Positions 23,822 to 48,798 of a DNA stretch of 64,000 nucleotides are shown here, piece after piece; within the stretch, counting starts at the first letter, position 1; each line of letters begins with the position of its first letter. Source of the DNA: Bacillota bacterium (lineage in GTDB: Bacteria; Bacillota; Bacilli; Bacillales_A; Planococcaceae). The stretch lies in NCBI GenBank assembly GCA_018816185.1, contig JAHIWI010000081.1, positions 21,730 through 85,729 on the forward strand, given 5' to 3'. The notes beneath the pieces are model-generated. The model was not told where the DNA came from and did no database searches. It was given only the letters and a program-made list of their open reading frames with translations. The translations under genes were made by a program, and so were the position numbers.

Positions 23822-24799
23822 ATGCAAGTACTCAAAATTTCACCCCGTGGATACTGTTACGGAGTGGTAGATGCCATGGTAATCGCTCGTAATGCTGCGA
23901 TGGATCAATCACTACCACGACCTATTTATATATTAGGAATGATTGTTCACAATAAACATGTAACAGATGCCTTTGAAAGAGATGGCATTATCACATTAGA
24001 TGGTGATAACAGAAAAGAAATATTAGAGAAAGTTGATGGTGGAACTGTCATCTTTACGGCTCACGGAGTTTCACCTGAAGTTCGTGAATTAGCCAAACAA
24101 AAAGGGTTAGTATCGATCGATGCAACTTGTCCCGATGTAACTGTAACGCATGATTTAATTCGAGAAAAAACGAATGATGGTTTTCATGTAATCTACATTG
24201 GGAAAAAAGGACACCCTGAACCTGAAGGTGCGGTAGGTGTTGCACCAAACGCAGTCCATTTAGTTCAAACGATTGAAGATGTTGAACAATTAAATATTGT
24301 TGCTGACAAATTAATCGTAACCAATCAAACGACAATGAGCCAGTGGGACGTTGCAGCTTTAATGGAAAAATTAAAAGCCAAGTTTCCACATATTGAAGTT
24401 CATAAAGAAATTTGTTTAGCAACTCAAGTACGACAAGAAGCAGTAGCCGAACAAGCTGGAGCTGCTCAACTTCTTATCGTCGTTGGAGACCCGCTAAGTA
24501 ATAATTCTAATCGTTTAACACAAGTGTCTGAAGAAATTGCAAACACCCCTTCTTATCGAATCTCAGATCTTTCTGAACTTAAACTTGAATGGCTTGAAGG
24601 TATCGATAATATTGCGGTAACGGCTGGTGCCTCTACACCAACTCCTATTGTTAAAGAAGTGGTTCAATTTTTAGAAAAGTATGATCCACTTAACCCTGAA
24701 ACACATAGTCTAGCTCGAACAGTAAGTATTGATAAGATTTTACCTAAAATTAAAACACCTAAACCGGTAGATCGAATCGAGCCATATCCTATTTCATAA
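23822..24799 (+). CDS. ispH: 4-hydroxy-3-methylbut-2-enyl diphosphate reductase
   Basis: [37 protein letters not shown] motifs. Confidence 0.96.
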
Positions 24800-24805
24800 C
24801 AAACA

Positions 24806-24835
24806 AGAGGCTATCCAATTATTTGGATAGCCTCT
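24806..24835 (+). terminator. ispH terminator
   Basis: AGAGGCTATCCAATTATTTGGATAGCCTCT followed by T-rich sequence. Confidence 0.85.
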
Positions 24836-24857
24836 TTGATTATAGAAAAATATAAAG

Positions 24858-24985
24858 TGTTGATTTCCATTGCTGCGGACGCTTTCCGGAGGGCAAGGCT
24901 TTAGCCGCTTCCTTCGCAAGGCTCAGTCCAGGGTCTAAAACTCTTGCTAATCCTCTCGGAGTCGCCGCCTCCATTTCAATCAACA
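24858..24985 (+). repeat. dispersed ~128-bp structured intergenic repeat, copy A
   Basis: near-identical length and sequence to the reverse complement of 47852-47978; TGTTGATT...AATCAACA inverted termini. Confidence 0.85.
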
Positions 24986-25054
24986 GAACTTCATATGAAT
25001 TTGAAGATATTAAATTTTTATTCGAATTTAGATATAAACATTTGATTTAACTAC

Positions 25055-25090
25055 GTCCTACATTGACTAATGGAATAGTCATTGTAGGAC
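25055..25090. other. 15-bp stem / 6-nt loop hairpin without T-tract
   Basis: GTCCTACATTGACTA-ATGGAA-TAGTCATTGTAGGAC (14/15 paired). Confidence 0.75.
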
Positions 25091-25115
25091 ATGAAACTTT
25101 AATGTCTACAATCGA

Positions 25116-25146
25116 AGAGGGTATCCAACTTTTTGGATACCCTCTT
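25116..25146 (-). terminator. terminator of Nif3-family gene
   Basis: AAGAGGGTATCC...GGATACCCTCTT; gene on minus strand. Confidence 0.85.
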
Positions 25147-47064: not shown

Positions 47065-47736
47065 TTAATAGTCAGAATTTGAAGTTAAACCTTGCACGAT
47101 TTGTACGCCTGAACTAGCTCCAATACGAGTAGCTCCTGCTTCAATCATTTTTTCAACGTCTTCTAGGCTTCTAACTGCTCCAGAAGCTTTAACGCCTAGG
47201 TCCGGTCCAACAACTTCACGCATTAATTTCACGTCTTCTACTGTTGCCCCACCTGTAGAAAAACCAGTTGACGTCTTAACGAAATCCGCCCCAGCATCTT
47301 TAGAAAGTTGACTAGCAACTTTTATTTCTTCTTTTGTCAATAAGCAAGTTTCTAAAATTACTTTTACAATTGCTTTACCTTTTGCTGCTTCTACAACAGC
47401 TTCAATATCACGTTTAACTAGTGCAAGATCTTCAGATTTTAATGCTCCTACGTTTAGGACCATATCTATTTCTCCAGCACCATTTTGAATAGCATCTTTT
47501 GTTTCAAACGCTTTCGTTTCAGGAGTTGATGCACCTAGTGGGAAACCAATAACTGTACATACTTTTACTGGAGTTCCAGTTAATAGTTCAGCAGAAGTCT
47601 TTACCCAAGTTGGATTAACACATACTGAAGCAAATACATATTCTTTCGCTTCTGCACAAAGTTTTTCTATTTGTTGTTTTGTAGCATCTTGTTTTAATAA
47701 TGTATGATCGATCATTGACGCGATATTTTTAGTCAA
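47065..47736 (-). CDS. deoC: deoxyribose-phosphate aldolase
   Basis: [33 protein letters not shown]. Confidence 0.96.
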
Positions 47737-47851: not shown

Positions 47852-47978
47852 GTTTATTGGAATGGAGACGACGACTCCGAGGGGAATAGCAGGAGCTTTA
47901 GACCCTGGACCAAGCTCGCAAGGGAAGCGGCTAAAGCCATGCCCCCCCGGAAAGCGACCGTCGCAATGAAAATCAACA
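47852..47978 (-). repeat. dispersed ~128-bp structured intergenic repeat, copy B (inverted relative to copy A)
   Basis: reverse complement aligns end-to-end with 24858-24985. Confidence 0.85.
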
Positions 47979-48060
47979 CTTTTTATTCGTCTACAAGCAT
48001 ATCTTTCCCTATAGTAAAAAGTTATATAAGTCATATAGTAAAAATTAATGAAAACCTTTG

Positions 48061-48798
48061 CTATTCCAATTCATACGAAATTGCTGAAAGAACATATAAA
48101 GGAGCCGTTTCAGCTCTTAAAATCCGAGGACCAAGAGAAATGGAATGGAACCCCTTCTCATGTAATTCAGAAATTTCTCTTCTAGATAAGCCACCCTCTG
48201 GACCGAAGACGACTAGTATTGAATCAAACTTCAACGCTTCTTTTAATTGATCAACCAGCCTTTTTCTATCGGTTAGTTTTGCCTCTTCTTCATCAGCTAC
48301 ATAAAGACAATCGTATTTTGACGACATACTGAGAAGTTGCTTAAATGATAACATGTCACTTATTTGTGGAATTTTATTTCGGTGTGATTGTTCAGCAGCT
48401 TCTTTCGCGATCTTTTGCAATCTCTGCTGCTTTTTCAGACCTTTTGAAGAATCCCATTTTACAATTGAACGTTCTGCATCAAAAAGTACTAACTCATCCA
48501 TACCAAGTTCTGTGCCTTTTTGTGTAATTAAATCGAGTTTTTCACCTTTTGGTAAACCACAACAAATCGTGATTTTTTTCGGTAACTCATTACTCTTTAA
48601 AGGACCTTCAATCATTTCAACTTGAACATCTTGTCCTTCAAAGCCGATAATGACAGTCTTATATGCAACCTTTTCCGTAACGATGATGATTGAATTACCT
48701 TCTTGCATCCGCATAACTTTTTGAATATGTTTGGCATCATCACCTGAAATAAGTAATCGATTATTAATAAATGGAAGTGAACTAAAATACCGTTGCAT
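48061..48798 (-). CDS. rsmE: 16S rRNA (uracil(1498)-N3)-methyltransferase
   Basis: VVFGPEGGLSRREI, LGPRILRAETAPLYVLSAI. Confidence 0.96.
   Translation of the reverse strand: MQRYFSSLPFINNRLLISGDDAKHIQKVMRMQEGNSIIIVTEKVAYKTVIIGFEGQDVQVEMIEGPLKSNELPKKITICCGLPKGEKLDLITQKGTELGMDELVLFDAERSIVKWDSSKGLKKQQRLQKIAKEAAEQSHRNKIPQISDMLSFKQLLSMSSKYDCLYVADEEEAKLTDRKRLVDQLKEALKFDSILVVFGPEGGLSRREISELHEKGFHSISLGPRILRAETAPLYVLSAISYELE

Follow-up and report, generated by a model that had tools for sequence, protein, structure and literature searches.

The repeat and its distribution

A structured repeat of about 128 bp is present twice, in opposite orientations, in the window, the whole stretch of 64,000 nucleotides of Planococcaceae DNA that was analysed here, and the question raised by this locus is what kind of element the repeat represents. 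An earlier note on this DNA had suggested a MITE, a REP-type element or a structured RNA. Copy A of the 128-nt core is located at 24858-24985 on the forward strand and scored 144.1 bits with R1, a covariance model built from the core alignment. Copy B is located at 47852-47978 on the reverse strand (124 bits), between a gene at 48061-48798 and another at 47065-47736, which we take to encode RsmE and DeoC respectively. The end-to-end similarity of the inverted copies that had been reported was recovered at 84% over 132 aligned columns (E 6e-32), and both copies are richer in G+C (53% in A and 55% in B) than the window (36%), as had also been noticed.

The window belongs to a draft genome near Paenisporosarcina (2.8 Mb in 382 contigs, 81.8% complete). 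A BLASTn search of this genome with copy A and its flanks returned 47 matching pieces, which represent at least 40 copies, so the repeat is not confined to the two copies of the window. None of 33 own-genome copies was found inside an open reading frame of more than 150 aa, in agreement with the non-coding character claimed earlier, and among the 27 copies with a readable strand, 24 have an upstream gene that points toward the core.

With R1, the core was detected in 112 of 121 genomes of a family sample, where all 19 genera carried it, and in 191 of 200 genomes of an order sample which proved to be of the same family. Across the class it was found in 72 of 301 genomes, and in a phylum sample in three of 399; the samples hold one genome per species, the E-values are rough and the per-genome copy numbers are lower bounds. 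The suggestion in the earlier note that similar sequences are common in Bacillales intergenic regions is thus borne out. Named carriers include Sporosarcina, Psychrobacillus, Planococcus, Lederbergia, Filibacter and Paenisporosarcina, and no core match was found by BLASTn against plasmids and phages. The core was also observed on two contigs (L213 and L215) of a genome named Arthrobacter beigongshangensis (Actinomycetota), where contamination or misnaming appears likely.

Anatomy of the insert

The borders of the 128-bp repeat were considered as the borders of the element and rejected, since the flanks are conserved and bracketed by hairpins. Many copies have common flanks, with TTGACTGTAGACAAATAgAAAA upstream and tGAAATCacTGTAAATAT downstream. 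The repeat described in the earlier note is real but is not the full element, which in copy A is a 278-bp insert (24837-25114, forward strand) within a duplicated terminator. The first copy of this host intrinsic terminator hairpin (AAGAGGCTATCCA..TGGATAGCCTCTT) is located at 24805-24836, after the gene at 23822-24799, presumably ispH, and the second copy (AAGAGGGTATCCA..TGGATACCCTCTT), which forms the target-site duplication, at 25115-25146. Between the two copies, a single stem pair has changed with compensation, and some bases of the loop differ. Inside the insert, the left terminal inverted repeat (24837-24849) is degenerate, reading TGATTATAGAAAA where the consensus of the copies is (CA)GACTGTAGACAAATA, and was placed by aligning it against the left end of IS1182 as well as against other copies. 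A second hairpin (GTCCTACATTGACTA / TAGTCATTGTAGGAC), read directly from the sequence, occupies the right part of the insert at 25055-25090, and the right terminal inverted repeat (TGTCTACAATC) was identified at 25103-25113. The general form of the ends is (CA)GACTGTAGACAAATA at the left and TTTGTCTACAGTC(TG) at the right, and they are degenerate in old copies. For copy B, a relic of the left terminal repeat (GCTTGTAGACGAATA) was read from the sequence at 47984-47998 on the reverse strand, and neither a right end nor a hairpin duplication was detectable in the flanks examined.

The core family is modular. In some cores, a second module (GGAAAGATTAGAACC..GGTTCTAATCTTTGCGACGAAGCTAGCGCAGCGATGCAGGAGCAG) is present in place of GGAGTCGCC (L018 1516-1708, L032, L033, L035, L039, L030 and L040), and in others a different module (GGAGGCCAACAGGATGTTGGTTTCACAGACGTTGCCACACGATGTGGCG..) takes the place of the inner 5' arm (L025 1396-1584, L031, L036 and L041). 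A large composite of core-like arms and both modules was observed downstream of the match in L262, at the site orthologous to L007. In addition, a recurrent structured piece (CTGAAGACTCCTGCGGAAAAACGAAA.ACGCTAGACCCCACAG) occurs in the right part of several inserts (downstream flanks of L003, L009, L025 and L035; L022). The BOX repeats are modular as well.

Terminator duplication and empty sites

A search for target-site duplications, which had been proposed as a check, showed that whole terminator hairpins are duplicated. The upstream and downstream flanks of each own-genome copy were aligned with each other, and in 11 of the 31 testable copies, among them copy A, the score exceeded those of all 930 mismatched pairings. 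The inserts of these duplicating copies are approximately 260-605 bp by local flank alignment, a range that varies with the end of the alignment, and the 278 bp of copy A was obtained from the sequence. No hairpin duplication was detectable in the remaining copies, about 20 of the 31, copy B among them.

Empty orthologous sites, whose existence had likewise been put forward as a check, were found in close relatives. At the site of copy A, six same-genus genomes (L090-L093, L095 and L096) have a single hairpin and no insert. L097 also has no insert and has a different hairpin, and L094 has a hairpin remnant together with another sequence. The eight other genomes of the genus lack the core of copy B at its orthologous site. 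Furthermore, nothing corresponding to two copies of the GCTGATT type was found at the orthologous sites of relatives, which are too diverged for exact borders to be drawn, and IS1182 ends were not found on copies of this type.

Full-size IS1182 relatives

The ends of the window-type elements, CAGACTGTAGACAAA...TTTGTCTACAGTCTG, match an insertion sequence of the IS1182 family. As an example, the full-size element at L084 starts with CAGACTGTAGACAAA, which is the left-flank motif of the window family, and its transposase scored 466 bits against NF033551 (IS1182), with 358 bits for the transposase of L082. A search with the L084 transposase found 30 loci from 30 genomes. The order of parts in L084-like elements begins with the host hairpin, followed by CAGACTGTAGACAAAC.. 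together with its inverted copy and a run of T, then a promoter-like TTGCCT-N16-TAAAAT and the core; the transposase, a second hairpin ending in TTTTGTCTACAGTCTG and the same host hairpin again complete the element. In 21 of the 30 loci a core precedes the transposase match at a distance of 14-62 nt, and one partial core and one scar were found in addition. In the 25 L084-like elements with both ends found, these ends are CAGACTGTAGACAAA / TTTTGTCTACAGTCTG, small variations apart, and the hairpin is duplicated in 23 of the 25, each above every mismatched control.

Among the named genomes, 28 of 110 cores immediately precede a transposase, which belongs to IS1182 in 26 cases and to ISL3 in two, the ISL3 type being assigned through the L135 protein by NF033550. 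The IS1182 left-end motif is present within 150 bp upstream of 44 of these 110 cores and on the other side of one. Two further IS1182 subgroups with other ends (L082 and L141 types) also carry the core, and Paenisporosarcina TG20 has IS1182 copies with the core. Some close relatives among the IS1182 elements have no core, and it is therefore not needed for transposition. On the transposase tree, presence of the core changes five times, at least three of these changes being forced by well-supported branches, in a count that scored L268 and L272, whose cores are partial, as carriers. Identical sets of copies in G015, G102 and G096 have common flanks, and the G015 and G096 copies that were taken further sit in IS1182 (NF033551) elements. 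Such sets were considered as a sign of free mobility of the core and were rejected as such because they are transposon copies.

The own draft genome contains an IS1182 remnant (58 aa) with the CAGACTGTAGACAAAC end and without the core. An intact IS1182 is not present among the 382 contigs of this assembly, which is 81.8% complete, and for that reason the mobilising enzyme is deduced from relatives.

Several further arrangements were observed among the full-size elements. In L266, L268 and L272 the transposase gene is followed by a second, inverted core, and the two cores face each other. The core is located about 40 bp before an ISL3-family transposase in L135 (689-817), L194 (1288-1416) and L206 (562-690). 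Two insertions of the L082 type of IS1182 (L082 1858-1930 and L083) lie within another recurrent sequence (GTCTAGGC....CTCGAGGTCGCTTCGATCCCTCGGGCGAAAG). An apparent internal TGA in one transposase group proved trivial, as it lies before the likely start codon.

Because the window copies are non-coding and multicopy, have terminal inverted repeats and a target duplication, are missing from empty sites in relatives and have an autonomous IS1182 relative, we regard them as MITEs, and this mobile character is well supported by the sequence comparisons. The repeat is very probably the core of non-autonomous IS1182-type MITEs that insert at terminators and carry the leader hairpin of full-size elements. 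The earlier note was right about the repeat; the terminal inverted repeats of the element, the terminator duplication and the link to IS1182 had gone unseen.

Structure of the core

The core can be drawn as a rod of 38 pairs, which was set by hand from the sequences and the RNAalifold result on 27 aligned copies. The inverted-repeat termini and pairing internal arms are present as described earlier. Within this alignment, 93.5% of the cells pair, 14 pairs have changed on both sides (5.9 expected) and 49 cells carry double changes (13.6 expected), so that differences between copies do keep the pairing. The base of the rod, for example, varies as GTTGATT/AATCAAC, GCTGATT/AATCAGC and GCAGATT/AATCTGC, and the inner arm as GCAAG/CTTGC, GCACG/CGTGC and GCATG/CATGC. 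None of 500 shuffles reached any of five pairing measures, in a control that leaves relatedness in, and all pair counts rest on related sequences. The signal was lost when the partner was slid by one to three columns; given this control and the many double changes, chance pairing is unlikely, and covariation is strong relative to background.

No match to Rfam 15 was found in the window at the gathering score. At E-values up to 10 no relevant family was found, and one weak match lies beside the core. If a sense RNA were selected, G-U pairs would be expected to exceed A-C mismatches. We counted 75 GU against 62 AC in 118 rows, after removal of two columns fixed in non-Watson-Crick states, and 13 GU against 45 AC in 47 transposon-linked cores, where 23 of the 45 AC fall in one column. 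In our reading these counts show no preference for a strand, and a DNA hairpin or decay after insertion fits better than a conserved RNA. These counts speak against strand-specific RNA selection, and we consider a free-standing structured RNA unlikely; they may be compatible with a leader role in full-size elements. The likeliest role of the core is that of a hairpin used by the element, putatively either a leader that keeps transposase expression low or a DNA hairpin that aids transposition, rather than that of a host regulatory RNA.

Alternative explanations

The three readings proposed in the earlier note did not fare equally, as the MITE stands, the REP-type element falls and the structured RNA is weakened. 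A regulatory leader or small RNA kept by selection for the host or the element would account for the strong compensatory changes in both the 27 copies and the 118-row alignment. In addition, the promoter-like TTGCCT-N16-TAAAAT precedes the core in L084-like elements, and the core would therefore be the 5' end of the transposase mRNA. However, wobble pairs of the sense strand are not favoured, Rfam holds no match, and the free copies stand at the 3' ends of genes and are absent from the examined orthologous sites, which makes this explanation improbable. A REP- or BIME-like palindromic repeat spread by a RAYT (Y1) transposase would share the intergenic position, the palindromic form and the high copy number, but such repeats have units of 20-40 bp, and the unit here measures from 128 to more than 250 bp. 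The transposases linked to the core are DDE enzymes of IS1182 and a target duplication is present, both of which contradict a REP-type origin, and we give this reading almost no weight.

The core could also be an independent mobile hairpin, a MITE of its own with GTTGATT/AATCAAC ends, that inserts beside terminator-like hairpins, including those within insertion sequences, and travels with IS1182 only as a passenger. Its presence and absence between close IS1182 relatives (L282 against L283, and the five changes on the tree, at least three of them forced) would agree with this, as would its occurrence in ISL3 elements and in three IS1182 subgroups whose ends differ, and the GCTGATT-type copies without IS1182 ends, two of which lack a counterpart at the orthologous site. 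On the other hand, identical free cores with different flanks were not found, as the identical sets in G015, G102, G096, G137 and G130 have common flanks and those taken further carry IS1182 transposases. In L270 all but the tip of the core is gone, as would be expected after a deletion, and the terminal sequences are free to vary if pairing is kept, unlike ends that are bound by one enzyme. We hold an independent core to be a minority possibility. The related suggestion that the core is a hairpin module which passes from one insertion sequence to another, across three IS1182 subgroups and ISL3, as a transposon passenger or regulator, independent of the accompanying enzymes, is similarly tentative. 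The IS1182-type MITE with its leader hairpin remains our preferred explanation.

Comparison with known systems

The described case of an IS1182-family element that inserts at inverted repeats or stem-loops is IS1272 of Staphylococcus (Wan et al. 2017, PMC5678879). The same paper cites Siguier et al. for the targeting of palindromic sequences by some members of the family, so this preference was known before. The present elements resemble IS1272/IS1182 in their stem-loop targets and, in the full-size relatives, in a DDE transposase of NF033551. However, IS1272 replaces the stem-loop without a target duplication, which is discussed only as a possible pathway (PMC5678879), whereas here the whole terminator stem-loop is duplicated; our element fits the duplication pathway raised there. 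Unlike IS1272, the window elements also have no transposase gene, and many of their relatives carry the 128-nt leader core.

Compared with bacterial MITEs as reviewed in PMC10969869, the elements are alike in being short, non-coding and intergenic and in having terminal inverted repeats, a target duplication and an autonomous relative, and they differ in that the target is a whole terminator and that a conserved structured core is retained. The bcr1 repeat of the Bacillus cereus group and the Bhal-1 repeat of B. halodurans are likewise stem-loop repeats of Bacilli; in PMC2267715, Bhal-1 is listed as 74 bp and bcr1 as 147 or 167 bp, and our comparison with them is by description only. The title of a paper cited in that source attributes mobile element characteristics to bcr1. 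The BOX, RUP and SPRITE repeats of Streptococcus pneumoniae (PMC3049150) are similar in being small interspersed repeats; they belong to a different host group and are set beside the core by description only. Our literature searches found no description of this repeat family, of the leader core or of whole-terminator duplication by IS1182 elements.

Proposed mechanism and significance

The elements have IS1182-type ends, are located at terminators downstream of genes and have the whole stem-loop on both sides. An IS1182 transposase acting in trans would recognise the ends of the element together with a hairpin or cruciform at the terminator and may join the element at the feet of the stem-loop, after which repair would duplicate the stem-loop. 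The MITEs could have arisen from elements that lost their transposase gene and left-end promoter but retained the leader core. As each copy would then lie between two terminators, its neighbours would hardly be disturbed and copies could persist.

In the sequences of this locus and its relatives, transposons that take intrinsic terminators as insertion sites, duplicate the whole stem-loop and leave copies insulated by two terminators are clearly recorded. This insulation would be a simple explanation for at least 40 copies in one genome without entry into genes. Hairpin-directed transposition of IS1182 becomes testable in a laboratory host, and the finding accounts for a repeat that is present in most Planococcaceae genomes without an Rfam entry.
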